Below, one piece after another: positions 16,140 to 36,781 of a DNA stretch of 60,796 bases. The notes beneath the pieces are model-generated. The model was not told where the DNA came from. It saw only the letters and a list, made by a program, of their open reading frames with translations, and did not search any database. Numbering within the stretch: position 1 is the first letter of the stretch; every line of letters starts with the position of its first letter. The stretch is from an uncultured Oscillospiraceae bacterium (lineage in GTDB: Bacteria > Bacillota > Clostridia > Oscillospirales > Oscillospiraceae). Where the stretch lies: the NCBI GenBank assembly GCA_947627285.1, contig CANQVL010000011.1:1-60796 (forward strand), in the 5' to 3' direction. The position numbers and the translations under genes are program-made.

Positions 16140-18539
16140 TTACTCAGCAGCGGTGACCCACATCTCGGTGATGGTGCCATCCTTGACAAAGCCCTTGATA
16201 GTCTGACCATCCTTGAGCTCAGTGGCATCGCAAACGAACACTACGTGATCAGCGTCGTAGTTGTAGTATTCATTGCCGACCTGGATGACAGAACCGATAA
16301 GGGTTATCTTGCCATCAACATCAAGCTTCATGGCGCTGCCGGAGATGTAGCTGTTGGAATTGTACGCGTAAACACCATCAGTGATTTCCGTGCCGGAGGT
16401 TGCGTAAAGTGTGATCTCTTCGCCGGTAGAGGTGTAGGCGGTGTAGGAGTCTATTGTTGTTTGAGTAGAGCCGGTCGCAACAGTCTCGGAAGACTTGGTA
16501 GAAGCAACAACATATGCCTTGTCAACATCAACAGCACCCGCGGTGTAATTCTCACCAACGAAAACGAACTTCGCGACCTTCGCATCGCCCTCGTAAACAA
16601 CGGTAGCCTTACTAGCTTCAATGACGCCGGAGCTGGTGTTGCCGGTCCTGGTGACAAGCGAGCTGATCTTACCGCTGTTGTCCGTATTGTAGAAGTAGAA
16701 CACGGTGGAGCTGTTCAGGATTGCAGTGACTTTATTCTCTTTGCCCTTCTGAACCTCAGCGGAGGCGGCGCCGTTCTTAATCTGCGCTGTATTCTTACCG
16801 TCACTCACCTCATCGGTCTTCAGAACGAGGTCGCCATTATCATCGTAGGTGTAAGTGTACACGGTATCTTTCTCAGCGGCTTTATTTGTTGTACCGTAGT
16901 TCACAGTGTACTCACCATACTCGCCGGTGGAGAGAATGCCGTAAACCTTACCGGTGTAAGTAGGCGTTGAGACCATCCAGTTGCTGGAGGTTGTGGTGCC
17001 AGAGGCGGCAAGAACATAGATGTAATTGTTCTTTGCGGCTTCCTTCTGCTTGTTCACGCTTCCAAGAATGTATCCTTCGGAATCAACATATACGCTGATT
17101 TCTTGACCCACCACAGGAGCAAACTCATCAACGCAATCATATGCGGTCAAATAAGCAGCGCCGTCAATGTAGTATGTCTTGGGCCCGTTATTCTTCTGGG
17201 TAGTCCTCTCAAGCTTGCCGGTGACAACATCAGGCTCCTCAAGGCTTTGAATGACAAAGGCACCATTCTTGTCCGTGGTGACTGTCATCATGAGAACGGT
17301 GTTCTCAGGATAGTTAATGAACTTTGTGGAAGCGAACGGACCAGCTACTCCGCTGACATCGTTGCCGCCGAGACGTGCGAAGCTCTGAGATACAGTCTTC
17401 TTGCCGGTAGCAGAGTCGGTGCTAGTGGTAGTCTTATTGGCTTTGACAAGGAGAACAGGAATGCAAACGATGGTATAGGTCCCGTCTCCATCATCATAGA
17501 CTTCAGTCTTGCAGCCGTTTCCGGTGTAGTCAATAGTTTTTGTATTGGTGAGATCAAAATCTACATGCCAGGTTTTGCCGAGCTGGATAACATCAGCTGA
17601 TGTCTCTTCATCAAGTTCGAGATCGGTATAAATCTTCTTGTAGCTCACTTCGGTTGTGTACTCAAGAACAGGCTCATCCTTCACGGAGTAGAGAACGGTC
17701 GTTTTGCCGTTAACAGTCCTGACCACGCTGGTCTGGGGACGACCGTACGCATCAGGAGCGTCACTCGTGGAAACATTGTATCCAGCAAGAATGGAATCGC
17801 TGGCAACAGCAGCATCAACAACAAACTTGTCGCTGCCAAGCACCGCCCTCGCCGCGTAAGCTTCAACGATGGAGGAGAAGGTCTCGACAGGATTGCCGGT
17901 AGCTTTGCCGTCTTTACCCATCTCATACAGACCCCACATCTTCTCACCGGAGGGACTGGCGGTCATGGTGTTGTACATCATCTGAACAGCGTTGTCACGG
18001 CTGATAACAGCAGTGGCGGAGTAGCCGGTGATGCCATCGGTGAGCTTATACTCCTTGACCTTCTGGGCAACGAAGTTCTCCCAGCTGCCGTCGGTGGGGA
18101 GTTTTTCGCCCAAAGCTTCGATCATCATAGCCGCCAGCTGGACGCCGGTGAGCTTTCCGGTGGGGTTGAACTTGTTGTCGCCCACACCGTGAATGTAATC
18201 ATTCTCGACCGCCCAGGTGATGTACTTGTTGTAGGGATCGGTCACAGGGACGTCGTCGAAAATTGCCCTTGTGGCGACAAGGTCATCCACTCCGTCAGGG
18301 GTAAGAACGACACGGGCCAGAAGGATAGCTGCCTCAAGGCGGGTGAACGTTCCGCTGGGGTTAAAGCTTCCATCGCCGACGCCGCTGACAATGCCCAGCC
18401 CATTGAGCACCGCAACAGCTTCGTCGTGCGTGATCTCGTCGGCGTCAGTGAACTCGGCAGCGTTCGCCGGAATTACCAGCACGCCTACCGCCATGACTAC
18501 CGCCAAGACCAGGCACAGGGTCTTCTTCAGAGTCTTCAT
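16140..18539 (-). CDS. S-layer homology (SLH) domain surface protein, paralog, 799 aa
   Basis: Exported wall-anchored protein, paralogous to the gene at 51-2468. The signal peptide differs at only a few positions and ends NAAEFTDADE. SLH repeats cover about residues 30-195 (FDDVPVTDPYNKYITWAVEN, then GVGDNKFNPTGKLTG). The C-terminal ~600 residues share segments with the paralog: YKKIYTDLEL versus FSKIYADLGL, EVYDDGDGTYTIV versus EVYNDGDGSYTMI, and KVYGILSTGEYGEYTV versus KVYGILSTGEYNEYTV. An identical AAGGAGGAAACACTAC leader precedes the start. The two probably arose by duplication with inversion or later gene conversion. Function beyond surface attachment is not evident. Confidence 0.85.
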   Translation of the reverse strand: MKTLKKTLCLVLAVVMAVGVLVIPANAAEFTDADEITHDEAVAVLNGLGIVSGVGDGSFNPSGTFTRLEAAILLARVVLTPDGVDDLVATRAIFDDVPVTDPYNKYITWAVENDYIHGVGDNKFNPTGKLTGVQLAAMMIEALGEKLPTDGSWENFVAQKVKEYKLTDGITGYSATAVISRDNAVQMMYNTMTASPSGEKMWGLYEMGKDGKATGNPVETFSSIVEAYAARAVLGSDKFVVDAAVASDSILAGYNVSTSDAPDAYGRPQTSVVRTVNGKTTVLYSVKDEPVLEYTTEVSYKKIYTDLELDEETSADVIQLGKTWHVDFDLTNTKTIDYTGNGCKTEVYDDGDGTYTIVCIPVLLVKANKTTTSTDSATGKKTVSQSFARLGGNDVSGVAGPFASTKFINYPENTVLMMTVTTDKNGAFVIQSLEEPDVVTGKLERTTQKNNGPKTYYIDGAAYLTAYDCVDEFAPVVGQEISVYVDSEGYILGSVNKQKEAAKNNYIYVLAASGTTTSSNWMVSTPTYTGKVYGILSTGEYGEYTVNYGTTNKAAEKDTVYTYTYDDNGDLVLKTDEVSDGKNTAQIKNGAASAEVQKGKENKVTAILNSSTVFYFYNTDNSGKISSLVTRTGNTSSGVIEASKATVVYEGDAKVAKFVFVGENYTAGAVDVDKAYVVASTKSSETVATGSTQTTIDSYTAYTSTGEEITLYATSGTEITDGVYAYNSNSYISGSAMKLDVDGKITLIGSVIQVGNEYYNYDADHVVFVCDATELKDGQTIKGFVKDGTITEMWVTAAE

Positions 18540-18701
18540 GTAGTGTTTCCTCCTTAATAAAAATTGGGATATATTTACAGTAACATTATGGAGGAAAACA
18601 CGCCTCTTTGCGCAAAAACAGGCGGAAATCTAAAACCTTTTGACAGGATCCGCGATTTTCCCTGTGTCTTATGCGCGTATTATCCAAATTCTGGCAAAGT
18701 A

Positions 18702-18730
18702 TTGCGCGCGGGAAAAAGATATGTTATAAT
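18702..18730 (+). promoter_or_regulatory. Promoter of the M20 dipeptidase gene
   Basis: TTGCGC (18702-18707), a 17-bp spacer and TATAAT (18725-18730), 40 bp upstream of the start codon, with TTTTGGAGG before the ATG. The 230 bp between the divergent SLH and dipeptidase genes shows no clear promoter for the SLH side. Confidence 0.7.
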
Positions 18731-18769
18731 AACAATTTAAGAAACGATAAACTTTTTTGGAGGCGCCGC

Positions 18770-20062
18770 ATGGATAAACGTGTAAAGGAATATTTCGAGA
18801 GCCATTCCGACAAAATTCTGGAGGATATTTCCGCCCTTGTCGCCGTTGACAGCGTCCGGGGCGAGGCCGCGCCCGGCGCGCCCTACGGACCGGGACCGCG
18901 CGGGGCGCTGGAAAGGGCGCTGGAGATTGTCCGCGCCCACGGGCTTGAGGGCTGTATTTTGGGCGACCGGGTACTGGTCGCCGAGCTGGGCGAGGGCGAG
19001 CCGGAGCTGGGGATCCTGGCGCACCTGGACGTGGTGCCGCCGGCGGGGGAGTGGAAGGTCACCGAGCCCTACGTCATGCGGCGCGTCGGCGGCAAGATCT
19101 ACGGGCGCGGCGTCATCGACGACAAGGGCCCCGCCGTCTGCGCCCTTTACGCGCTGCTCTGCGCCCGCGATTTGGGGCTTGCGCGCCGGAAGGTGCAGCT
19201 CATTCTGGGCTCAGACGAGGAGTGCGGCTCCGGGGACATCGAGTGGTACATGGAGCATTACAAAATGCCGCCGAAGGTCTTCACCCCCGACGGCTCCTTC
19301 CCGGTGGTGAACACCGAAAAGGGCCGCGCGCACCTGCTGATTACCGCCCCGCCCCGGGGCGAGGGCGTGAAATGCGTGTCCGGCGGCTCGGTGCCCAACG
19401 CCGTCCCCGCCGTGTGCCGCGCGGAGCTCTCCGACGGGGAGAAGCTCGAGGTCACCGGTCGCGCCGCCCACGCCAGCACACCCGACGAGGGCGACAACGC
19501 CGTGACAAAAATGCTTGAGGAGCTGGCAAAGCGCGAGGGCGGCGGATTTGCCCTTTTCCGCGCCCTCAGCAGGGCCTTCCCCCACGGGGATAACGGGGGC
19601 TTCGCCCTGGAGCAGAACTGCTCTGACGAGCTCTCAGGCGCTCTCACGGTGAATCTGGGGGTGCTGGAGTACGACGCGGCAAAGGGCCTCACCGCCCACG
19701 TGGACTGCCGCGTGCCCGTCTGCGGCGACGGAAAGATGATCGCCGCCGCCCTTCAGGATACGCTGGGCGATTTGGCGAAGGTGGAAATTCTCGGCGTGTC
19801 CGCCCCGCACCACACGCCGGGGGATTCGGATTTCGTCCGGGGACTTTTGAAAATCTATGAGGAGTACACCGGGGAGAGGTGCGAGCCCCAGTCCATGGGC
19901 GGCGGGACGTATGTCCACGAGATCGAGGGCGGCGTCGCCTTCGGCGCCGAGTTCCCCGGAAGCGACGTGCATATGCACGAGCCCGACGAGAGGGTGGACG
20001 TGGCGGAGCTTCTCCTGGGCGGAGAGATGTACGCCGAGGCCGTCGCCGCCTTCTGCGGCTGA
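18770..20062 (+). CDS. M20 family dipeptidase (PepV/Sapep-like)
   Basis: Predicted cytoplasmic zinc dipeptidase of about 430 aa. Motifs in order: LAHLDVVPP with the first metal His and the catalytic Asp, YGRGVIDDKGP with the bridging Asp, GSDEECGSGDIEWYM with the catalytic Glu pair, then TPDGSFPVVNTEKG, and the late metal ligand in SDVHMHEPDERV. These match the Sapep/PepV branch that cleaves dipeptides with broad specificity. The ATG at 18770 is preferred over upstream in-frame codons because GGAGG lies 6 bp before it and the protein then starts at the family position (MDKRVKEYFESH). It is transcribed from its own promoter. YihY follows. Confidence 0.9.
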   Translation: MDKRVKEYFESHSDKILEDISALVAVDSVRGEAAPGAPYGPGPRGALERALEIVRAHGLEGCILGDRVLVAELGEGEPELGILAHLDVVPPAGEWKVTEPYVMRRVGGKIYGRGVIDDKGPAVCALYALLCARDLGLARRKVQLILGSDEECGSGDIEWYMEHYKMPPKVFTPDGSFPVVNTEKGRAHLLITAPPRGEGVKCVSGGSVPNAVPAVCRAELSDGEKLEVTGRAAHASTPDEGDNAVTKMLEELAKREGGGFALFRALSRAFPHGDNGGFALEQNCSDELSGALTVNLGVLEYDAAKGLTAHVDCRVPVCGDGKMIAAALQDTLGDLAKVEILGVSAPHHTPGDSDFVRGLLKIYEEYTGERCEPQSMGGGTYVHEIEGGVAFGAEFPGSDVHMHEPDERVDVAELLLGGEMYAEAVAAFCG

Positions 20063-20093
20063 GCCGCGGCATTCACAAAGGATGTGATCCAAG

Positions 20094-21041
20094 CTGAAAA
20101 GATTAAAACGCGCCGTCGCCGTCACGGTGGACTTTTTTGACGGCATAGGGGCGAGGAAGATATGGACCTTTGCGGCGGCGGCGGCCTTCTACCTCTTTTT
20201 GTCCCTGGTGCCGATCCTCGGCCTTGTCTGCTCCGTGCTGCCGTATACGCCCCTGACCGAGGCCACATTCCTGGAGTTCCTGCAGCGCTTCGCCCCGGAG
20301 GAGCTTTATTCCGTTCTCTCCGGCATCATCGTCAGCATCTACGACAGCTCCACCACCACCCTCTCCGTCACCGCCGTGGCGTCCATATGGACTGCGAGCC
20401 TGGCGACGCTCTCCCTCATGCGCGGCATGGACGCGGCGCACGACATCAGCCGGAAGGAAAACTTCATCGTTTTCAGGCTGCGCGCCTGCTTCTTCATGGT
20501 GATAGCCCTCGCCGCCGTACTTATGACCCTGTGCGGTATCGTCTACGGCGGGCGGATACTTGATCTGGTGAGCCGCCACCTGACAGGCTCCTGGGCGGAG
20601 GACGTGCTTCTGGCGATAATCAGGATAGGTCGCTACCCCGTGATGATGCTGATTTTGTTTTTGGTGTTCCTCATAATGTACAAGTGGATGCCCGCGGGAA
20701 AGCGCAGGCTCATGAGGCAGTGGCCCGGCGCGCTGTTCACCACCGTGGCGTGGCTGGTGTTCTCCTGGGGCTTTTCCCTCTACGTGAGCTATTCAGACCG
20801 CTACGGCGTGTACGGGATACTGGGCACCGTCATCGTGGCGCTTTTGTGGATATATTACTGCCTCTTTATCCTCCTGGTGGGCGCCTATATCAACCGCTTC
20901 GTGCGCGAGGAGCCCGAACGCCTCCGCACCCGCCACCCCGAGCTCCAACCCACCAAAACCCCCACCCTCCCAGACCCTCCCGCCCCCGCAAAGGAGGAGA
21001 CAAAACCCACCGTGCCCGAACCAAACAAAGCAGATACGTAA
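20094..21041 (+). CDS. YihY/BrkB family inner membrane protein
   Basis: Polytopic membrane protein of the YihY/virulence-factor BrkB family, function unknown (once misassigned as RNase BN). Family marks are WTFAAAAAFYLFLSLVPILG near the N-terminus, the central ARKIW/ISRKENF segments and late SYSDRYGVYGILGTVIVALLWIYY; about six helices are visible. The Pro/Lys-rich tail (about residues 270-315) is probably disordered. The start is uncertain. GTG at 20127 gives 304 aa but has a weak site. An in-frame CTG at 20094, behind AAAGGATG, gives LKRLKRAVAVTVDFFDG, closer to family N-termini; I list that one. Confidence 0.8.
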   Translation: MKRLKRAVAVTVDFFDGIGARKIWTFAAAAAFYLFLSLVPILGLVCSVLPYTPLTEATFLEFLQRFAPEELYSVLSGIIVSIYDSSTTTLSVTAVASIWTASLATLSLMRGMDAAHDISRKENFIVFRLRACFFMVIALAAVLMTLCGIVYGGRILDLVSRHLTGSWAEDVLLAIIRIGRYPVMMLILFLVFLIMYKWMPAGKRRLMRQWPGALFTTVAWLVFSWGFSLYVSYSDRYGVYGILGTVIVALLWIYYCLFILLVGAYINRFVREEPERLRTRHPELQPTKTPTLPDPPAPAKEETKPTVPEPNKADT

Positions 21042-21119
21042 ATTCTCCCCGGCATACTATCACGGACAAAGCTGAAATTTACTGCTATGCCGGACGTGAG
21101 GAGTTTTTTTGACAGACTG

Positions 21120-21148
21120 CGCCGCCTGGATTTTCAGGCGGCGTTTTT
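21120..21148 (+). terminator. Terminator after yihY
   Basis: CGCCGCCTG (21120-21128) pairs with CAGGCGGCG (21135-21143) and is followed by TTTTT. It is a canonical intrinsic terminator, the first of two in tandem that insulate the recombinase region from upstream transcription. Confidence 0.85.
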
Positions 21149-21166
21149 GCGCTTTGCCGTTCATTC

Positions 21167-21203
21167 AGCGGCTGCCGCGTTTTTTTGTGGCAGCCGCTTT
21201 TGT
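21167..21203 (+). terminator. Second tandem terminator before the recombinase
   Basis: AGCGGCTGCC (21167-21176) pairs with GGCAGCCGCT (21189-21198), followed by a T-rich tail. Together with the preceding hairpin it blocks read-through, so recombinase expression must start locally. TTGACT at 21214-21219 is a candidate -35 box, but the -10 is poor. Confidence 0.75.
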
Positions 21204-21290
21204 TGTGCTTTCCTTGACTGTTCCCTCCTGTTTAGTGATAGATTGATTGCGTCCGTTTGGGGCAAAATACTGTCACGAGGAGGAATTTTT

Positions 21291-22127
21291 ATGGAAGAAA
21301 AAATCATAACGGCAGAAACCCTCGCGGGGTTTGACAAATACCTTGAGGACCGGGAGCGCGGCGCGGCGACACGGGAGAATTATCTGCGCGGAGTGCGAGC
21401 TTACATGGAGTTCCTGTCAGGCGGGGCTGTAAGCGCTGAGAGGACACGGGAATTCAAGGAATGGCTGCTGTCCCGCGGACACGCCCCCGGGAGCGTCAAC
21501 ACCACGCTTGCCTCCCTAAACGCATTTTTTAAATTTATGGGCTGGTCCGATTGTGGGACTAATCGTGTCCGAACCCAGAAAAGCGCCTACTGCCCGGAGG
21601 AACGGGAGCTCAAAAAGGACGAGTATATGCGCCTGTTGAAAGCGGCGGGACCGGGAAGATGGAGGCTTGTCCTGGAGACCGTGGCCTCAACGGGTATAAG
21701 GGTCTCCGAGCTTAAATTTTTCACCGTGGAGGCGGTGGAGCGCGGGACCGTCACCGTGACATGCAAGGGCAAGGTCCGCGGCATATTCGTTCCGGTAAAA
21801 TTGAAAAAGCTCCTTTTGCGGTTCGCAAAGGAGCGCGGTATAGCCGAGGGACCCATATTTCTGGACCGGAGAGGAAAGCCGGTGAGCCGCGGCACCGTCT
21901 GGGGGATGATGAAGCGGCTTGCGAAAAAGGCGGGCGTGTCGCCGGGCAAGGTATTCCCCCACAGCCTGAGAAAGCTTTTCGCCCGGGCATTTTACGAGGT
22001 GAGCCGGGATATTGCGAAGCTTGCGGATCTGCTGGGGCACAGCAGTATAGACACCACCCGCATATATATCATGACCAGCGGCGCCGAGCACCGGAGGGCA
22101 CTGGAGAAAATGAGGCTGCTCATCTGA
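21291..22127 (+). CDS. Tyrosine recombinase, probable DNA invertase of the adjacent switch
   Basis: A 278-aa tyrosine recombinase. The N-terminal SAM-like core-binding domain spans residues about 8-85, and the catalytic domain follows with R137 (TGIRVSEL), K159/K161 (CKGKVRG), H224-R227 (HSLRK), H250 (LGHSS) and nucleophile Y259 (TTRIYI). All catalytic residues are present. The start is chosen at ATG 21291 behind CGAGGAGG. The gene stops 22 bp before a 23-bp perfect inverted repeat (22150-22172) whose partner lies at 22378-22400, with a promoter between them, and no other recombinase is nearby. By analogy with invertible promoters in Clostridia and Bacteroides, I infer that it inverts this segment. 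A XerC/D-like or ICE integrase role is less likely given the small size and site arrangement. Confidence 0.88.
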   Translation: MEEKIITAETLAGFDKYLEDRERGAATRENYLRGVRAYMEFLSGGAVSAERTREFKEWLLSRGHAPGSVNTTLASLNAFFKFMGWSDCGTNRVRTQKSAYCPEERELKKDEYMRLLKAAGPGRWRLVLETVASTGIRVSELKFFTVEAVERGTVTVTCKGKVRGIFVPVKLKKLLLRFAKERGIAEGPIFLDRRGKPVSRGTVWGMMKRLAKKAGVSPGKVFPHSLRKLFARAFYEVSRDIAKLADLLGHSSIDTTRIYIMTSGAEHRRALEKMRLLI

Positions 22128-22149
22128 ATTTGGGCAAAAAAATAAACGC

Positions 22150-22172
22150 GACATTATTGATATAATGTCACG
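22150..22172 (+). repeat. Left inverted repeat of the switch
   Basis: The 23-bp sequence begins GACATTATTGATATAATGTC and continues ACG. It is the exact reverse complement of 22378-22400. CCGGGGAA follows at 22179-22186, in the same orientation as the CCGGGGAA that follows the right repeat at 22409-22416, a possible accessory protein site. Confidence 0.92.
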
Positions 22173-22216
22173 CACTTTCCGGGGAAAACGCAAGCCGCAC
22201 GAAATTCTTCCACTAC

Positions 22217-22245
22217 ATAGTAGCACTGTAAAGCCGTAATGTCAA
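22217..22245 (-). promoter_or_regulatory. Promoter inside the invertible segment
   Basis: Minus-strand TTGACA (22240-22245), exactly 17 bp, then TACTAT (22217-22222). It is one of the best sigma-A promoters in the window. In the present orientation it would make only an RNA antisense to the 3' end of the recombinase gene. Confidence 0.85.
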
Positions 22246-22377
22246 CAATTTTGTAGGAAAAATTTTAAAATCGCCACGCCGCGACGACCCTTCCGGGCCG
22301 GTCGCGCGAAAGCGCGCCCAATTTTGCCGCGCAAGGACCTCCTTTTACGTCCCCGGGCGCCTCATCAGGCACGGGAA

Positions 22378-22400
22378 CGTGACATTATATCAATAATGTC
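22378..22400 (-). repeat. Right inverted repeat of the switch
   Basis: Exact 23-bp reverse complement of 22150-22172; homology stops abruptly on both sides. It is 50 bp upstream of the pilin-like start codon. Confidence 0.92.
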
Positions 22401-22450
22401 CGCACCGACCGGGGAAGACAAGAGCCTACCTTTTTAAGGAGGTTTTTACA

Positions 22451-23701
22451 ATGCAAAAGCGCAGAAACAGCGGTTTTACCCTGGTGGAGCTTGTGGTGAC
22501 CATAGCGGTGCTGGCGATCCTCGCGGGAGTGGGAGCCGTGGCGTATGGCGGGTACATAACGAAGGCAAACGAGGCGCACGACCAGGTGTTGATCGGCGCT
22601 GTGAACGAGGCGTTTGCCTCCGCGTTGTACGACGTGGGGTATACTGACGGTCTGCCCGATATGGCAACCGCAGAGCTGAACGCTGATAAGACGGTAAAAA
22701 GTGTATCCTCTGACGGCATAGATGATTTGAACGAAACGTTTTTCAAGTATTTTGACGGCAATAAGGATACACCTTTTAAAGTTATCAAGTCGCTTCTATA
22801 CAGCCCGATTCAGGGCTTCTATGCCAGCTTAAAGGAAAACGAGTATATATTTAGCAACGGTAAATTGGTTAAAAAGGGAAACGACGGAAGTGGCAGAACC
22901 ACATGGGAATGGACAACAAAGAATGGAGAGAGTGTCACACTTACCACGAGGGAGGAAAACATTGAGAGCTTCAACAACTCCAGTTTCGGTAAAAACATGA
23001 CCATGGAAGGTTTGATGGGCGAAGTCGATAAGCTGGTTACCGGCGTAACCGGTGTTGTCAGTAGTGTTGACCCCACTGAGTATCTGACAAAAGATATAAT
23101 GAATATGCTAGAAACAGCCGGATATAAACCTGGAACAGATGACTATAAGAAAGCCGCCGTTCGTGCGTTGGTGGTGCAGTCGGCAATGCAAGCTGATTGT
23201 TGGACGGTTGACGGTCTTCTCGCGGACATGAAGAAAGGTTATCTCTCCACATATCCAACGAATGGGCCGGACGACGGTAAATATGCCTATGCGGCCAGTT
23301 CCAACGCAATGTTGTATGCTATGGTAACGGGCTATGCGCAGAGCGACGCCGGGAAAGATGCCAAATTAAAAATTTGGATGGAGAGCGAGGGACGGAACTT
23401 TGAGGGTACGGTAGCCGAATATTACGATCAATATGTTACGAAGGTGCTGAACGGTGAAAACGGCGCACGTCCCAGCCAGGCATATGGTGCAATAACGACG
23501 CTTTTGAAGGGCGTCACACAAACACAAGATTATAAAGATTACTTAGATAGCGGAGAGGGCAAGAAAGATATAGAAGGATACCTCGGCGCGATGGAATTTA
23601 TCCGTGATAACGCCGACTCAATTATCAGCAGTAAGACGCTGGACGCCGGTTTCAACGATCCTGCTCTTGCAGAAATGCTGTCAGCCCTGTTCGGCGGCTG
23701 A
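22451..23701 (+). CDS. Large type IV pilin-like protein (prepilin N-terminal methylation motif)
   Basis: The N-terminus carries a textbook class III prepilin signal: a short basic leader QKRRNSG, cleavage before F9, the conserved Glu at mature position 5 (E13) and a hydrophobic helix LVVTIAVLAILAGVGAVAYG. The following ~385 residues form a Lys/Asp/Gly-rich extracellular domain with no recognised fold; at 416 aa it is far longer than typical major pilins. AAGGAGG precedes the ATG. No pilus assembly ATPase, platform protein or prepilin peptidase lies in the window, so assembly would rely on genes elsewhere. Its position just downstream of the invertible segment suggests ON/OFF phase variation. 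It could alternatively be a minor pseudopilin or adhesin. Confidence 0.85.
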   Translation: MQKRRNSGFTLVELVVTIAVLAILAGVGAVAYGGYITKANEAHDQVLIGAVNEAFASALYDVGYTDGLPDMATAELNADKTVKSVSSDGIDDLNETFFKYFDGNKDTPFKVIKSLLYSPIQGFYASLKENEYIFSNGKLVKKGNDGSGRTTWEWTTKNGESVTLTTREENIESFNNSSFGKNMTMEGLMGEVDKLVTGVTGVVSSVDPTEYLTKDIMNMLETAGYKPGTDDYKKAAVRALVVQSAMQADCWTVDGLLADMKKGYLSTYPTNGPDDGKYAYAASSNAMLYAMVTGYAQSDAGKDAKLKIWMESEGRNFEGTVAEYYDQYVTKVLNGENGARPSQAYGAITTLLKGVTQTQDYKDYLDSGEGKKDIEGYLGAMEFIRDNADSIISSKTLDAGFNDPALAEMLSALFGG

Positions 23702-23714
23702 TACCGTGCCCCAC

Positions 23715-23774
23715 TGGTGACGGTTCTTGTGAACCACCTGCGCTTACGCTCCGGTGTCCCACAAGAACCGTCCC
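23715..23774. repeat. Inverted repeat with GACGGTTCTTGTG arms
   Basis: GACGGTTCTTGTG (about 23718-23730) is repeated in inverted form as CACAAGAACCGTC (about 23760-23772), followed by CCCTTGGGACG. Short palindromic elements carrying AAGAACCGTCCCC are, from memory, common in Firmicutes intergenic DNA. It may also act as a transcription barrier after the pilin gene. Confidence 0.6.
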
Positions 23775-23809
23775 CTTGGGACGCCGGCGTTTCGTAAGGA
23801 GGCGATTCC

Positions 23810-24145
23810 ATGGACAGCTCTCTCCCCCGCTCGCGCCTGTATCTTTGGCTCGCCGTGGGAACGCAGATTTTAAGCCTCTTAGACTTCATCTACACCACCG
23901 TAGGTCTCCGGTTCATTCCCGGCAGCTTTGAGATGAACCCCTTTCTTGACAACCTCCTCGGCACACCGTGGGCGACGTTGGGGCTGAAATTTGTCCTGAT
24001 ACCGGCGTCACTTTGGATCCTCTACCACTTCCGCCGCAGACTGTCGGCGCGTATCGGGCTGTGGCTGTGCTTCCTCGCATACCTCGTTTTCGACGCGATC
24101 GCCCTTTACATAGTCCTCACCTACTGGCGGCAGGTGCTGGCGTAA
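23810..24145 (+). CDS. DUF5658-like small membrane protein
   Basis: A 111-aa protein with about three hydrophobic helices (WLAVGTQILSLLDFIYT, LGLKFVLIPASLWIL and LWLCFLAYLVFDAIALYIV). The pattern DxxxT near residue 30 followed by EMNPF and a short tail resembles DUF5658 membrane proteins of unknown function. An AAGGAGG site precedes the start. It lies between the pilin gene's repeat and the galactanase gene and has no evident partner. Confidence 0.6.
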   Translation: MDSSLPRSRLYLWLAVGTQILSLLDFIYTTVGLRFIPGSFEMNPFLDNLLGTPWATLGLKFVLIPASLWILYHFRRRLSARIGLWLCFLAYLVFDAIALYIVLTYWRQVLA

Positions 24146-24151
24146 AATGAC

Positions 24152-24215
24152 GGGAATACCGGTAAATTATACTTGCGTTTTTGTCGCTTTGTAGTATAAT
24201 TGAATCGGTATTCCC
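24152..24215 (+). promoter_or_regulatory. GH53 gene promoter inside a 10-bp inverted repeat
   Basis: TTGCGT (24173-24178), a 16-bp spacer and TATAAT (24195-24200). The promoter is bracketed by GGGAATACCG (24152-24161) and its exact complement (24206-24215), a candidate operator pair for sugar-dependent control. Confidence 0.65.
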
Positions 24216-24240
24216 AAATTTTATAAGGGAGGACGAGGAA

Positions 24241-26379
24241 ATGAAAAACGGGAAAATGAGGATCGTTCTCGCGGTGCTTTTGGCGGCGGTCATGTGCCTG
24301 ACGCTGTGCCAGTGCGCGAAGACGCCCGGCGAAAACGGCGGGAACGGGACGGAAAATCAGGGGTCCGGCGATCAGGAGCAGAACGCCGGGAACCAGGGCG
24401 GCGAAAGCCGGGGCCCGGACGACAGCGGGGAGGGCAGCACCACGCTCACTGACCCGGAGCCTGTGCCGGAGCCGGTGGAGGCGCCCATCTACGTCCCCTA
24501 CGTCACCGACGACGAGGACTTCATCAGGGGGACGGACGTGTCCTCCCTGCTGGTGGTGCTCAACTCCGGCGCGCGCTTCAAGGACTGGGAGGGCAACTCC
24601 CTGGGGGAGAGCGTGGAGGAGAACGGCGCGGCATTTATGAAGCTGCTCGCCGAGGCGGGGTGCAACTGGGTGCGCCTGCGCGTGTGGAACGACCCGTATG
24701 ACGAGAACGGCAACGGCTACGGCGGCGGCAACAACGACCTCGCCTCCGCCGTGACAATGGGCAAGTGGGCGACTGACGCCGGTATGCGGGTGCTCATCGA
24801 CTTCCACTACTCCGACTTCTGGGCGGACCCCTCCCGCCAGCTTGTGCCCAAGGCCTGGGAGGGCATGGACATCGACGCCAAGGCCAAGGCGTTGGGGGAT
24901 TTCACCGCCGACAGCCTCAGGACGCTTCTTGACGCGGGAGTGGATGTGGGCATGGTCCAGGTGGGCAACGAGACCACAGTTGGCATATGCGGCGAGACGG
25001 CGTGGCCCAATATGCTCAAGCTCTACAACGCCGGGTGCGACGCCGTCCACGCAGCGGGCGACATCTTGACGTGCGTACATATGGAATCTCCCCAGAGCGC
25101 GGATTTTGACAGCATCGCCCAGCATTTGACCGACGGCGGCGTGAAATTCGACGTGTTCGCCACCTCCTATTATCCCCAGTGGCACGGCACGAAGGAGAAT
25201 ATGGCGGCCAAGCTCAAGGGGATAGCGGACAAATTCGGCGTGAAGGTGATGGTCGCCGAGACCAGGGCGCCCTACACCGCCGAGGACGGCGACGGCTCCA
25301 ACTCCAACGCCCCCGCCGACTACGCCGTCAGCCCCCAGGGGCAGGCGCTGGAGTACGCGGAGGTGGCGAAGGCCGTCCACGACATAGGTCCCGCGGGCAT
25401 CGGGCTCTTTTACTGGGAGAACGCCTGGATACCCGTGCGGAACATCTCTCAGCTCACCGGCGCGGAGAGGGAAAAGGCCATCGAGGAAAATAAGCGCATC
25501 TGGGACGAGTGCGGCTCCGGCTGGGCCTCCAGCTACGCCCAGGACTACGACCCCAACGCCGCCAACGGCGGCTACGGCGGGCCGGATATGAACAACAAGG
25601 CGATGTTTGACTTTGACGGCAAGCCCCTGGAGTCGCTGAACGTGTTCAAATACATGACGACCGGCACCACGGGGTACAAGGACCACCTTGTGGACGTCCC
25701 CGTGGCGGTCGTGGACCTGACAGTGGGCGACGAGCTGGCGCTTCCCGCCACTGTTGACGCGGGACGCATAAGCGGGAAGTCGGAGGCCGTGGCGGTCAAT
25801 TGGGAGGACGCCAGCTTTATCACCATGGACGCTCCCGGCTACTGGGAGATCAAGGGCTGGATCGACGACGGTGACGGTGAGAAGGTCTGGACCGTGGCGT
25901 ATATCACCGTGGAGCGCCCGCCGCTGCCCTCGCTCCTTGACAACGGCGGCTTTGAGGACGGCGACACGGGCTACACCGTGGAGAACTGGCCCGGTGACGG
26001 GATCAACAACAAGAGCGGCAACGCCGGAAACGTCCACGCGGGCAGCTGGTGCCTGCACTTCTGGAAGGACTCCGCCTTTGAAAACGCCGTCACCACCACC
26101 GCCGTGACGCTGGAGCCGGGAACCTACACCTTCTACCTCTACGGACAGGGCGGAGATATGGGCGAGCACAAGACCTACATCTTCGTCAGGACCCCGGACG
26201 GGGAGCTGACTCAGGACTTTGAGCTCAACGGATACCTCAACTGGCAGCAGCCGGAGATAACCTTCACCCTCACCGAACAGGCGGAGGTCACCCTGGGAGT
26301 ATCGGTATCCGCCGGCGCGGGAGCCTGGGGAGCTTTTGATGACTGGACGGTCAACGCCGTTGATATAATATTCAATTAA
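24241..26379 (+). CDS. GH53 endo-beta-1,4-galactanase lipoprotein
   Basis: Predicted surface lipoprotein hydrolysing beta-1,4-galactan side chains of pectin. Residues 1-25 are a lipoprotein signal (LTLCQC lipobox), then a low-complexity Gly/Asn/Glu linker to about residue 85. The GH53 catalytic domain (about 95-450) starts FIRGTDVSSLL and includes GCNWVRLRVWNDPYD, the acid/base E244 in VGNETT, and the nucleophile E340 in MVAETRAPY; FYWENAWIPV closes the barrel. A bacterial Ig-like domain (about 490-560) and a C-terminal beta-sandwich similar to CBM61-type galactan binders (about 570-712) follow. Length is 712 aa from ATG 24241, chosen for its GGGAGGACGAGG site. It has its own promoter and suggests use of plant cell-wall polysaccharide. 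Confidence 0.92.
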   Translation: MKNGKMRIVLAVLLAAVMCLTLCQCAKTPGENGGNGTENQGSGDQEQNAGNQGGESRGPDDSGEGSTTLTDPEPVPEPVEAPIYVPYVTDDEDFIRGTDVSSLLVVLNSGARFKDWEGNSLGESVEENGAAFMKLLAEAGCNWVRLRVWNDPYDENGNGYGGGNNDLASAVTMGKWATDAGMRVLIDFHYSDFWADPSRQLVPKAWEGMDIDAKAKALGDFTADSLRTLLDAGVDVGMVQVGNETTVGICGETAWPNMLKLYNAGCDAVHAAGDILTCVHMESPQSADFDSIAQHLTDGGVKFDVFATSYYPQWHGTKENMAAKLKGIADKFGVKVMVAETRAPYTAEDGDGSNSNAPADYAVSPQGQALEYAEVAKAVHDIGPAGIGLFYWENAWIPVRNISQLTGAEREKAIEENKRIWDECGSGWASSYAQDYDPNAANGGYGGPDMNNKAMFDFDGKPLESLNVFKYMTTGTTGYKDHLVDVPVAVVDLTVGDELALPATVDAGRISGKSEAVAVNWEDASFITMDAPGYWEIKGWIDDGDGEKVWTVAYITVERPPLPSLLDNGGFEDGDTGYTVENWPGDGINNKSGNAGNVHAGSWCLHFWKDSAFENAVTTTAVTLEPGTYTFYLYGQGGDMGEHKTYIFVRTPDGELTQDFELNGYLNWQQPEITFTLTEQAEVTLGVSVSAGAGAWGAFDDWTVNAVDIIFN

Positions 26380-28177: not shown

Positions 28178-28587
28178 AGAAAAAGGGCGGAGCCAAAAAT
28201 TAATCGGCGAGCTAAAAGCAAGCCGATACAATGAGTAATTGGTAGGAATAAATCGCACCGCACTACCGTGACCTACCCGTTTACGGGTTGTGGGGCGTGT
28301 GATGCTATAATATGATTCAGTGCCCCTTACAGGGGCTAAGCCGGTAATAACCCCTTATAGGGGTATATCAAACCCCCGGTTGAACCGGAGGTTATGATTT
28401 TCTCTCCTTTGTTACTTTCCTCTCTTTTTGACGGTAACCGTCAACCCGCCCCCATCTTCCCTCCTTCCAAACACTGTGAAACAATGTACAGGGACGACCA
28501 GCGACTCTACGAGACTCTATGGCTCTGCCGTGGAGTCTCGTATACACTCAGGGAATCTCAGAGGATTACAGAGAACGGAGGCAGAGC

Positions 28588-28923
28588 ATGAACGAGATGA
28601 CGATCCGGGGAGCGGGGAAGATGGCGAATCTGCGGGTGTGGAGCCAGCGGGTGGCGGAGTGCCGGGGGAGCGGGATGCCGGTCAGCCGGTGGTGTCAGGA
28701 GCATGGGATCAACGTCAAGACGTATTACAACTGGCAGAAAAAAGTATTCGAGGCCATGGTGGAGGAACAACAGGGTGGACCAAGATTCGCGAGAGTCAGT
28801 GCCCAACAGCCTGAAAACAGTATCGCGGCCACGGTGCGCATAGGTCCCGCTGCGGTGGATGTGTACACGGGAGCCGACGCGGAGACTGTGGCGGCCATCG
28901 TGAGGGCGCTGACGGTATGCTGA
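28588..28923 (+). CDS. tnpA: IS66 accessory protein TnpA
   Basis: Small helix-turn-helix protein (111 aa) that opens IS66 elements. The region WSQRVAECRGSGMPVSRWCQ followed by EHGINVKTYYNWQKK is the typical DNA-binding motif. The ATG at 28588 has an ACGGAGG site. Its stop overlaps the start of tnpB. Reading frame intact; required with TnpB for IS66 transposition in studied members. Confidence 0.88.
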   Translation: MNEMTIRGAGKMANLRVWSQRVAECRGSGMPVSRWCQEHGINVKTYYNWQKKVFEAMVEEQQGGPRFARVSAQQPENSIAATVRIGPAAVDVYTGADAETVAAIVRALTVC

Positions 28924-29273
28924 GCGACTTCAACTGCTCCTGCCCCGTATACATAGCCTGCGGGTACACGGACCTGCGGAGAGGAATAGACGGTCTTGCG
29001 GGGCTCGTGAAGAGCGAGTTTGACCTGGACCCGTTCCAGGAGGCGCTTTTTCTGTTCTGTGGCCGAAGGCGAGACAGGATCAAGGCGCTGTACTGGGAGG
29101 GTGACGGGTTCGTCCTGCTGTACAAGCGCCTGGAACAGGGCGTGTACCAGTGGCCGCGGACGGACGCCGAGGTGCGCCGGATCACGCCGCAGCAGTACCG
29201 TTGGCTTATGGAGGGACTGAAGGTAGAACAGCCAAAAGCCCACTGGCCGGTGACGGGGCTGAGCATCATTTAA
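28917..29273 (+). CDS. tnpB: IS66 accessory protein TnpB
   Basis: The 118-aa IS66 Orf2 protein: YIACGYTDLRRGIDGLAGLV at the N-terminus, then LFLFCGRRRDRIKALYWEGDGF and LYKRLEQGVYQWP, all family hallmarks. It overlaps tnpA by 7 bp and precedes tnpC by 59 bp. The frame is intact. The exact biochemical role in transposition is not settled for the family. Confidence 0.9.
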   Translation: MLSDFNCSCPVYIACGYTDLRRGIDGLAGLVKSEFDLDPFQEALFLFCGRRRDRIKALYWEGDGFVLLYKRLEQGVYQWPRTDAEVRRITPQQYRWLMEGLKVEQPKAHWPVTGLSII

Positions 29274-29332
29274 AAGGCCGAAAAGCCTTGAAAACACTGG
29301 ACTTTTGGGTCGTTTTGTGGTACAATAAGTAC

Positions 29333-30885
29333 ATGAAAAATGATGCTTTGAACACAAGTACCACGGAAGAAATGGTGACCATTTCCCGTGCGGAATACGA
29401 GGGGTTCCTCGCCCAGAAGGAGCAGATCAATGAGCTCGAGCAGAAGCTGAGCTGGCTTATGGAACAGCTGCGCTTGGCCCGTCATCGCCAGTTCGGCTCG
29501 TCCTCAGAGAGGATCTCAGAGGAAGGCCTGGAGCAGCTGAGCCTTCTGTTCAACGAGGCCGAGGTGTACGCGGATGAGGAGAAGTCCGAGTCCACCCCCG
29601 TGGCGGCACACGTGAGACATAAGAGGAGCGGCGGCGTCCGGGACATCGTGCCGGAGGACATCAAGGTCGTCGAGGTGGACCACACGCTCCCGGAGGAGGA
29701 GCGCCAGTGCCCCCGGTGCGGCGAGGTCATGGAGGACATCGGGACCGAGGTCAAGGAGACGCTGAAGATCAAGCCGGCGGAGGTGTACATCCAGAGGGAC
29801 GTCTACCACACCTACGCTTGCGCCAACTGTGAGAAGAACGACGTCAGCACGCCGGTGGTGAAGACCCCGAAGGAGCCTCCCCTGATCCCCGGCGGGTTCG
29901 CCTCCCCGGAGGCGGTGGCGCACATCGCGGTACAGAAGTTCGTGATGGGAAGCCCCCTGTACCGGCAGGAGCAGGATCTCAAGCGGCAGAATATATTTCT
30001 GAGCCGCCAGACCATGTCCAACTGGCTGATGTGGTGTACGGACAACTACCTGAAATACATCTACGACGAGCTGCGTGGGGAGCTTGTGAAGCACGACCTG
30101 CTCCACGCGGATGAGACGGAGCTTCAGGTCTTACACGAGCCGGGCAAGGCCCCCCAGTCGAAGAGCTGGATGTGGCTGTACAGGACAAGCGGAAACGCGG
30201 AACGTCCCATCGTGCTGTACGAGTACCAGCCGGGCCGGGGACAGGAGTACCCGAAGAAGTTCCTGGAGGGGTTCAGGGGGTACCTGCAGACGGATGGGTA
30301 CGCGGGGTACAACGGACTGGAGAACGTGAGGCATGTGGGATGCTGGGCCCACGCCAGGAGGGGGTTTGACGAGGCCGCGAAGGCCGTGCCGAAGGGCAAG
30401 CGTTCCCCCCACGACGGAGCAGGGGCTGGCATACTGCTCGAAGCTCTTCAAGCTGGAGGAAGAATATGCAGATCTAACTCCAGAGGAACGAAAAGAGAGG
30501 CGTCAGGAGCGGTCGAAGCCGGTCTTGGACGCCATGTTGGCGTGGGCTAATACCAGGACGGCGGCGCCGAAGTCTGAGTTGGGAAAGGCGCTGACGTACC
30601 TGAAGAACCAGTGGCAGACATTGACGGTGTTCCTGGAGGACGGTAGGATCGAGCTGAGCAACAACCGGGCGGAGCGGAGCATCAAGCCGTTCGCGATCTC
30701 CCGGAAGAACTTCCTCTTCGCCAACACCCCCGGCGGAGCCCAAACCAGCGCTGCTGTTCAGTCTCATAGAGACGTCGAAGGAGAACGGCCTGGACCCGTA
30801 CAGGTACCTTACGTGGGCACTGACAGAAGCGAGCCGCAGACCGGCTGCGGAGCTGGTACCGTGGAAGTATTTGATCACAAGATAG
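29333..30885 (+). pseudogene. tnpC: IS66 transposase TnpC, two frameshifts
   Basis: DDE transposase of IS66. The N-terminal part is intact: a coiled-coil leader, ARHRQFGSSSERI, a zinc-finger region (CPRCGEVMED and later YACANCEK), and the catalytic start HADETELQVL and GYLQTDGYAGYNGL. After the C6 run at about 30404-30409 the frame shifts and the protein continues in the next frame as LAYCSKLFKLEEEYADL through ELSNNRAERSIKPF. A second shift near 30745 moves to the third frame, LLFSLIETSKENGLDPYRYL, ending at TAG 30883-30885. The undisturbed first frame stops at 30550. The element is therefore probably immobile on its own. Start ATG 29333 is chosen after the tnpB stop. Confidence 0.88.
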
Positions 30886-30965
30886 TTGTACACCCCTGAG
30901 GAGCCAAAGCGATGGCCCTCAGGGGTGCTGTTTTGGGGGTGGATTGACGCTTACGTTTGACGACA

Positions 30966-35578: not shown

Positions 35579-36781
35579 TTATCGGACTATGTAAGTTGAT
35601 GAATCGAAGAACTGGAGGGGGTTGATCTTTACGCCGTTTTTCCAGATCTCGAAGTGGAGGTGCGGGCCGTTGACTATGCCGGTGGCGCCGGAGAGACCTA
35701 TCTTCTGGCCCTTCTGGACCGTATCGCCTTTGGAGACCAGGCGCTTGGACATGTGCCCGTAGAGGGAGCAGTAGCCGTTGCCGTGGTCGATGACGATGTA
35801 GTTGCCGTAGGAGCTGGAATAGGCGGAGGTGATGACGGTGCCGGTGTCAGAGGCGTAGATGTTGGCGCCGGTGAGGGCCTTGAGGTCAACGCCCTTGTGG
35901 TTGGTGGAGGCGCCGGCAATGCCGGTGTCGCGCCCGCCCCAGCCGGAGGTGACCACGTTGGAGTCCACGGGCCATTGGAACTGCCCGGTGCCCTTGACGC
36001 GGCGGCTCGCCTCCAGCTCCTTCTGGAGCTTGGTTATCTCCGCCTTCAAAGCGTCCTCGTCGGCGGCCTTGGCGTCATAGACCGCCTGCATCTGCGTGAT
36101 GTCGTCCTGGAGGGCGTTTATGAGGTCGATGGCCTCCTGCTGCTCCACCTCGAGCTGGTCCTTTGCCTCCTGCTGCTCCTGGCGCTTTACCTCCATGTCC
36201 GCCTGTACGCTCTCCAGCGTGGCCTTGGCGCTTTCCGTCGCCTCACGCGCGGAGACGTAACGCTGGTAAAGGCTCTCGTCGTAGTCCATTATGGAGGAGA
36301 TCATGTCGATACGGGTGAGAAGGTCGGAGAAGTCGCGGGCGCCGAAGATGATGGCGTAATAGGAGACGGTGCCGTTCTCCTCCATGGCGCGGATACGTAC
36401 CTTGTACTGCTCCCACTGAGCCTCCTCGTCGGCCTTGCGCTGTGCGACCTCCTCCTCCTTTTCGGTTATGAGGATGCCGTACTGCTCGATCTGGGCGTCG
36501 TAGTTGGCGATGACGTCCATGGTCACCTCGATACGCTGGTCCAAAAGCTTCTTTTTCTCGGTGAGCTGGGACTTTTCGTATTTGGCGGAGTTTATCTCGC
36601 TTTTCAGGTCCTTCTGCTGCTGGCGAAGGCCGTCCAGGTCCTTCTGGAGCTTGTCGATCTCGTCCTGGGTGACGGCCCCGGCGGTGGAGGCGAGGATGGA
36701 GATGAGCACGGACGCCGCCATGAGCACAGCCAGGACGACGCACATGACGCGGATGAAGATTTTTTGAGCCTTGTTGTTCAT
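35579..36781 (-). CDS. EnvC-like M23 murein hydrolase with coiled coil, partner of FtsEX
   Basis: Predicted exported peptidoglycan hydrolase or activator (400 aa). An N-terminal membrane anchor or signal (about residues 8-36) is followed by a long coiled coil (about 38-265, rich in Lys/Gln/Glu heptads). A C-terminal LytM/M23 domain follows, with NHKGVDLKA (first zinc ligands), YGNYIVIDHGNGYCSLYGHM and GPHLHFEIWKNG. The metal-site residues are present, so it is likely active, unlike E. coli EnvC. It is directly downstream of ftsE-ftsX. In Firmicutes FtsEX controls a division or elongation hydrolase through such a coiled coil, so I infer the same here. Confidence 0.9.
   Translation of the reverse strand: MNNKAQKIFIRVMCVVLAVLMAASVLISILASTAGAVTQDEIDKLQKDLDGLRQQQKDLKSEINSAKYEKSQLTEKKKLLDQRIEVTMDVIANYDAQIEQYGILITEKEEEVAQRKADEEAQWEQYKVRIRAMEENGTVSYYAIIFGARDFSDLLTRIDMISSIMDYDESLYQRYVSAREATESAKATLESVQADMEVKRQEQQEAKDQLEVEQQEAIDLINALQDDITQMQAVYDAKAADEDALKAEITKLQKELEASRRVKGTGQFQWPVDSNVVTSGWGGRDTGIAGASTNHKGVDLKALTGANIYASDTGTVITSAYSSSYGNYIVIDHGNGYCSLYGHMSKRLVSKGDTVQKGQKIGLSGATGIVNGPHLHFEIWKNGVKINPLQFFDSSTYIVR

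Follow-up and report, generated by a model that had tools for sequence, protein, structure and literature searches.

An invertible-promoter switch, in all likelihood, between a tyrosine recombinase gene and a type IV pilin-like gene, one of about 16 such switches in an uncultured Oscillospiraceae genome

The window analyzed here is a stretch of 60,796 nucleotides from an uncultured Oscillospiraceae bacterium (contig CANQVL010000011.1 of assembly GCA_947627285.1, contig C11 in our numbering of this 2.81-Mb genome of 95 contigs). Between positions 21291 and 23701 it holds, from left to right, a recombinase gene, a 23-bp site, a 205-bp segment, the same site inverted, and a pilin-like gene. We conclude that this arrangement is very probably an invertible-promoter phase switch, which would turn the pilin gene reversibly ON and OFF, and that the window switch, rather than standing alone, belongs to a set of about 16 in the genome. 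Under the proposed mechanism, the recombinase (21291-22127) would bind both 23-bp sites and exchange strands within their asymmetric centers, inverting the 205-bp segment between them. In the assembled orientation, the promoter on this segment would point left, away from the pilin gene (OFF). After inversion it would point right, and a transcript starting near 22340 would run through the right site, the Shine-Dalgarno sequence and the pilin gene, and perhaps also through a DUF5658 gene (ON). With about 16 cassettes carrying type IV pilins or surface proteins, a clonal population would become a mixture of surface types. For the window copy itself, the action of the recombinase on its sites, the flipping and the start site are what we infer from sequence comparison.

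A preliminary description of this DNA had listed exact 23-bp inverted repeats around a promoter, a complete tyrosine recombinase gene and a pilin-like gene on either side of them, and site centers of opposite polarity. All of these elements were recovered, and the coordinates and distances given for them proved correct wherever they were compared. The recombinase gene (21291-22127, plus strand) encodes a putative invertase of 278 amino acids with a Phage_integrase domain (Pfam, 4.7e-23) that belongs to the Xer/integrase superfamily. Residues R137, K159, K161, H224, R227, H250, and Y259, which we take to be catalytic, are invariant in an alignment of 11 recombinase sequences. The gene ends 22 bp from the left repeat, and the intervening DNA (22128-22149) is a linker that contains an A-tract, GGGCAAAAAAATAAACGC. 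The left site (22150-22172, plus strand) consists of GACATTA-TTGATA-TAATGTC plus ACG, and the right site (22378-22400, minus strand) is its exact inverted repeat, so that the asymmetric center reads TTGATA on the left and TATCAA (within GACATTA-TATCAA-TAATGTC) on the right. The two 23-nt sites are 100% complementary at a spacing of 205 nt (22173-22377), and each is an imperfect palindrome in itself. Six further inverted-repeat pairs in 21000-24000 are all imperfect (13-28 nt, 79-93% complementary). The pilin-like gene (22451-23701, plus strand; 416 amino acids; N_methyl, Pfam 3.6e-8) starts 50 bp from the right repeat and is preceded by the ribosome-binding site AAGGAGG (22436-22442, plus strand).

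The same anatomy recurs widely. Searching the genome with the recombinase gave 19 matches, of which 16 are strong (E <= 9.6e-73, window copy included), and matches with E <= 1e-50 are present in 26 of 60 genomes (own genome included). We assembled 88 loci, comprising the window, 15 further loci of its own genome and 72 from relatives; the C3 stretch, which has weak recombinase matches, stood outside this set. Repeats were counted at the 71 loci with at least 450 bp of DNA on the 3′ side (17 loci with less were excluded), as pairs with a score of at least 15 located between −20 and +450 of the recombinase stop codon. An inverted-repeat pair lies behind the recombinase in 62 of these 71 loci. 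In control regions, such a pair was present at 4 of 85 loci within 470 bp on the upstream side, at 0 of 88 within the end of the gene, and at 0 of 68 in each of two regions further downstream; shuffles gave it in 1 of 1,420. Given these controls and shuffles, we rejected the explanation that the repeats arose by chance. Within the genome itself, 15 of the 16 loci have the repeat pair, the exception being on contig C70. Among named relatives, which include Oscillospiraceae metagenome-assembled genomes named ‘Lapin’, close relatives that presumably come from rabbit gut, as well as Cuneatibacter, Holdemania, Hespellia, and others, the pair is present in 62 of the 70 loci with enough DNA; these come from 80 loci that were the best 80 of 554 confirmed matches and are partly the same records as in the 88-locus set. 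At one locus of the genome (L017, on contig C56), the 0-280 bp after the recombinase carry a row of more than two sites, which gives alternative repeat pairs, and this locus may have more than two switch states.

The promoter that the preliminary description placed on the minus strand was found by a consensus scan at 22245-22217 (TTGACA-N17-TACTAT), with 10 of 12 consensus matches and a TG ahead of the −10 hexamer. It is the best of six promoter-like sites in 21200-24250 (shuffles, mean 2.4, standard deviation 1.7), and an equally good match on either strand occurred in 17 of 2,000 dinucleotide shuffles of the 205-bp segment. The same hexamers and 17-nt spacing are present in the cassette on contig C2, whose segment is 100% identical to that of the window, and in the relatives’ cassettes G017:C6, G017:C5, G032:C53, and G031:C25. 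As assembled, the promoter faces the 3′ end of the recombinase gene; after inversion it would sit at 22305-22333 on the plus strand, facing the pilin gene. Across the family, promoter matches reach 10 of 12 or better in 55 of 67 segments, compared with 47 of 670 shuffles. The position of the promoter is also constrained: in 43 resolved segments, the distance from the −10 hexamer to the cargo-side site in the ON state has a median of 46 nt (range, 28-52 nt), and in the window it is 44 nt. A constitutive promoter in 22401-22450, the element named beforehand as one that would refute the switch, was not found there by the consensus scan.

Orientation was called by rules that use consensus matches only. 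Under the strict rule, 35 of the 67 segments were OFF, 8 were ON, and 24 were left unassigned; among the 15 segments of the genome itself, 7 were OFF, 4 were ON (C33, C40, C56, and the C27 copy at 36366), and 4, including the window, were left unassigned. The window falls into the last class because of a weak promoter-like match, TCAACA-18-TAAAAT, at 22242-22271 on the plus strand (9 of 12). In the homologous segments, G031:C25 keeps TCAACA with a poor second hexamer, CAAATT, and the other three relatives have different best plus-strand matches. Although the strict rule leaves the window unassigned, we read it as OFF, as had been proposed, because its homologues keep the minus-strand promoter and because the distance from this promoter to the site is 44 nt.

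Three indirect lines of evidence support inversion in this family: segments in opposite orientations, the site centers, and the positions of contig ends. Homologous segments lie in opposite orientations between collinear flanks in C33 and C37 of the genome itself (93% identity over 288 bp), in G005:C1 and G005:C37 (97% over 150 bp), and in C33 and G002:C33 (98% over 283 bp); in these pairs, recombinase and cargo keep their places on opposite sides of the segment. All 116 sites that have a palindromic core have an asymmetric center, and in 115 of them the centers at the two ends are identical once one is inverted (8 further sites lack a clear core, and the loci pooled for this count overlap in part). 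A symmetric four-base center would be expected in about 1 in 16 sites by chance; because the loci are related, the asymmetry is supporting evidence only. Lastly, 16 of the 88 loci have a contig end within 300 bp on the 3′ side of the recombinase match, compared with 1 of the 88 on the 5′ side.

A recombinase of the Xer/integrase superfamily, next to repeats that are each imperfect palindromes, could also suggest attachment sites, mobile-element remnants or regulator-binding sites, none of them with a role in inversion. We consider this very improbable, since homologous segments occur in both orientations within collinear flanks, the promoter keeps a fixed position, dozens of loci show the same anatomy ahead of genes for pilins or secreted proteins, and no other phage or mobility protein was found among the six proteins scanned in 18671-26376. 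The orientation pairs, the fixed place of the promoter and the surface cargo led us to discard the mobile-element and attachment-site candidates. The earlier proposal that flipping turns on the pilin gene draws support from the recurrent anatomy, from both orientations among homologues and from the fixed promoter place.

Some observations weigh against an invertible switch. A good repeat pair is missing from 9 of the 71 full loci, that of C70 among them. The draft assembly is fragmented (95 contigs, 1.37% contamination), and some cassettes could come from a second strain. Contig breaks at the switches can also be explained by near-identical repeats of paralogues, and inversion is deduced indirectly, from comparison of assembled sequences. 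The 9-of-12 match at 22242-22271 faces the pilin gene in the present orientation, possibly as a leak or by chance. Finally, in 34 genomes of the genus (own genome included), the full or near-full matches to the window segment, namely, C2, G017:C6, G017:C5, G031:C25, and G032:C53, all have the window’s orientation relative to the recombinase, and the only match in the opposite orientation is a 60-bp partial one in C33. These five homologues, together with the predominance of OFF among resolved segments, could mean that the window copy was once invertible and is now locked OFF. We find this improbable: the reading frame and the catalytic residues of the recombinase are intact, and the two sites match each other perfectly, a state that active exchange would maintain.

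The genes behind the switches point to the bacterial surface. Cargo was defined automatically as the first forward open reading frame (ORF) of at least 100 amino acids starting within 900 bp of the right site. Among 65 cassettes, this rule assigned pilins to 25, proteins that bear a signal or a membrane-spanning segment to 31 (a call made by a crude hydrophobicity rule, so that some of the 31 are probably wrong), other proteins to 8, and no cargo to 1; G024:C67, one of those called ‘other’, has a pilin ORF further on. By this automatic call, one relative, G024, has ten pilin cassettes. In the genome itself, five recombinase cassettes have pilins, and the small contigs C78, C91, and C92 carry further pilin genes whose N termini resemble those of C33 and C37. 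The ends of these contigs range from the place of the right site (C78) to the start of the pilin gene (C92), and the three are probably broken-off cassettes. S-layer homology (SLH) domains were found in five of eight non-pilin proteins scanned, and two of the remaining three are cut by the end of the stretch. In other Bacillota, the same recombinase family stands ahead of SipW-type signal peptidases and SipW-dependent (TasA/camelysin-like) proteins, hinting at switchable matrix fibers there; in six named relatives picked by eye, SipW-type matches exceed the curated cutoff in five (L143, L150, L158, L187, and L135) and stay below it in one (L182).

The window pilin has a prepilin signal (GFTLVEL, with G, F, and Glu at +5) together with its N_methyl domain, and its N-terminal part has profile matches to solved type IV pilins. 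After residue 55 it is homologous to a pilin encoded beside a prepilin peptidase gene on contig C59 (31% over 383 amino acids, 4.7e−40). Pilus assembly genes are present in the genome, namely, a T2SSE-type ATPase and T2SSF on C88 and prepilin peptidases on C59 and C70. A pilus of the type IV kind is likely because of the homology to the C59 pilin and the T2SSE and T2SSF genes on C88, and the window pilin would presumably be assembled by this machinery. The predicted structure (mean predicted local distance difference test score of 80) has a long N-terminal helix at 11-61, with low confidence in most of 1-33, followed by a beta region and then a helical remainder. The head, after residue 61, is modeled with fair confidence. 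Foldseek found no PDB structure matching the model with E <= 0.001, and none below 0.45 for the whole model; on the strength of the model, the head may be an undescribed pilin head fold. The pilin clusters with prepilin peptidase genes occur in two copies (L211 on C59, 1-4117, and L013 on C70, 1-4026) that are 88-98% identical in pieces, as a result either of duplication or of two strains having been binned together; the C70 copy runs on into a recombinase gene.

Recombinases, sites, and cargo vary together. Site arms fall into few classes, above all ACATTAT and ACAAAA, and ACATTAT-type sites are present in all 25 pilin cassettes, compared with 6 of 38 cassettes labeled non-pilin. Recombinase clades track cargo, with 2 changes on the tree compared with a shuffle mean of 20 (none of 500 shuffles as low); one of the 2 changes is the misread locus G024:C67, which bears a ‘nonpilin’ label. 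The preliminary description had given the pilin gene its own dedicated recombinase. Adjacency held up, and exclusivity became uncertain, since the site GACATTATTGATATAATGTC is common to the window, C2, and C37, and the window recombinase is 55% identical in protein sequence to that of C2 and to that of C37. Because these three cassettes share a site despite such divergence, action in trans is possible. Recombinases that flip several sites in trans, such as RecV and Mpi, are known elsewhere. The switch could thus be real and yet not private, with one or a few paralogous recombinases flipping all sites with the same arms, as the shared core site and the small number of arm classes suggest. We regard this as a serious possibility, albeit not the favored one. 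Recombinase and switch stay together, with the switch directly behind in 62 of the 71 loci (which were found through the recombinase, so that switches standing without one lay outside the search), and recombinase clade, arm class and cargo go together, as local action predicts.

Some cassettes nevertheless appear to be mosaics, joined at the recombination site from a recombinase half and a switch-plus-pilin half of different histories. We compared 32 cassettes with ACATTAT-type sites (496 pairs) and found that recombinase and switch identities are correlated (0.77). Seven pairs combine unlike recombinases (<72%) with like switches (>88%), and three pairs show the reverse. The recombinase genes of the window and C2 are 63% identical in DNA and their switches 100%; after the right site, identity is 96-100% over the first 200 bp and then falls to about 40-70%. 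Between C33 and C37, identity is 65% for the recombinases, 93% for the switches, which lie in opposite orientation, and 88-100% over about 600 bp past the switch. Conversely, C33 and C40 have recombinases that are 91% identical in DNA and switches that are only 69% identical. In the three alignments inspected, the level of similarity shifts at the A-tract and left site. These mosaics would be explained by site-based exchange between cassettes, or equally by ordinary gene conversion through the shared 30-odd bp, and the ten discordant pairs probably represent only two or three independent events. We tentatively suggest that the sites might do two jobs, namely, the flipping of the promoter within a cassette and the exchange of entire right halves, each made up of switch and pilin, among cassettes with the same arms and center. 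Such exchange would reassort recombinases, promoters, and pilins into a self-shuffling library of pilins and coat proteins, an idea to which we give somewhat less weight than to action in trans.

Hairpins accompany the switch on both sides of the promoter. A terminator-like match on the minus strand at 22173-22146, with the tail TTATTTTTTT, combines the stem of the left site with the T-tail of the linker and could act on leftward transcripts; the four terminator-like matches in 21200-24250, against 3.6 expected, are weak evidence alone. A run of at least six A residues precedes the left site in 15 of 25 pilin cassettes, compared with 1 of 37 others. The A-tract and the site stem would presumably stop the OFF promoter from reading into the recombinase gene. 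Behind the promoter lies a GC-rich stem (22267-22291, minus strand; terminator-like match), possibly a terminator or insulator that moves with the promoter. A hairpin of −20 kcal/mol or below is present behind the promoter in 55 of 67 segments, and in 65 segments with any hairpin, a T-rich stretch follows the hairpin along the promoter's direction in 29 segments and along the opposite one in 12. The folding z behind the promoter has a median of −2.4 and is below −3 in 21 of 58 segments (window, −1.8). For 15 of these 65 hairpins, RNAalifold predicted no consensus base pairs. These hairpins may insulate the cargo from read-through.

The principle of flipping a promoter is well known. In the fim system of Escherichia coli, a tyrosine recombinase inverts a promoter segment ahead of the subunit gene of the type 1 (chaperone-usher) pilus. 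In contrast to fim, the cargo here is type IV pilins, and there is one recombinase gene per cassette and many cassettes. The pilin of Moraxella bovis is of type IV. Its inversion, to judge from the title of a reference in PMC5903667, concerns the pilin genes themselves, whereas here the promoter segment would invert and the pilin gene would stay. Bacteroides fragilis likewise has many invertible regions per genome and combinatorial surfaces; there, according to PMC5903667, one serine recombinase, Mpi, serves at least thirteen regions, whereas the genome studied here has sixteen tyrosine recombinases, nearly all beside a switch. The Cdi elements of Clostridioides difficile are also clostridial inversions beside surface or regulatory genes. 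As presented in PMC5903667, they mostly involve RecV, and only Cdi7 has a recombinase gene in its vicinity; in the genome studied here, by contrast, a recombinase gene adjoins each of about 15 switches, which have pilins and SLH proteins as cargo.

A close published parallel by description is in PMC11892184, which reports 33 invertons of group 139, 32 of them from Clostridia and nearly all near a tyrosine-type recombinase of group 35, and orientation shifts measured in reads, for example, in Intestinimonas butyriciproducens and Clostridium sp. D5. Like these invertons, the window switch is clostridial with a tyrosine-type recombinase nearby, and the example from I. butyriciproducens, with 14-bp repeats and an inner length of 227 bp by its coordinates, is of similar size. 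To judge from these descriptions, the window family is possibly the same as inverton group 139 and invertase group 35. In the main text of PMC11892184, ‘pilin’ and ‘pilus’ have no occurrences, whereas the window cargo is a pilin. A literature search for such type IV pilin switches in Oscillospiraceae found none among the matches listed, and one combining ‘S-layer homology’, ‘invertible’, and ‘phase variation’ found none either; in a collection that is mostly open access and without bioRxiv preprints, these negatives are weak evidence of novelty. The preliminary remark that such a switch is little described thus stands for the pilin cargo within the literature searched and does not hold for clostridial invertons with nearby tyrosine recombinases, which are published (PMC11892184). 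The single locus is ordinary for its kind. What is unusual is the number of recombinase-bearing cassettes per genome, the pilin repertoire, and the mosaic cassettes. With about 16 recombinase genes serving separate ON/OFF switches of pilins and S-layer-type proteins, this commensal gut genome would be a strong example, beyond Bacteroides and C. difficile, of programmed diversity at the cell surface. The cassettes raise the questions of how far paralogous tyrosine recombinases with shared arms are faithful to their own sites and whether site-specific recombination reassorts switch modules among loci, and they offer a natural set of related recombinase-site pairs for the study of specificity.

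Around the switch, the window contains several other features. Rfam gave two matches in 21000-24300, both under the gathering scores. The DUF5658 membrane protein gene (23810-24145, plus strand; Pfam 5e−10) is perhaps cotranscribed with the pilin gene, and similar short ORFs, compared by eye, follow the pilin cassettes of C2, C40, C33, and C78. Directly after the pilin gene, positions 23716-23775 form an imperfect palindrome, GACGGTTCTTGTG...; similar GGACGGTTCTT repeats occur in some G024 and G002 cassettes and are perhaps a repeated element of the genus. ORFs at 28519-30899 look by eye like those of an IS66-type element, with the transposase apparently in two frames (29150-30550 and 30333-30899). 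Near the switch and outside any cassette, the minus strand at 16140-18539 encodes a secreted protein of 799 amino acids whose beginning, judged by eye, resembles S-layer homology repeats.

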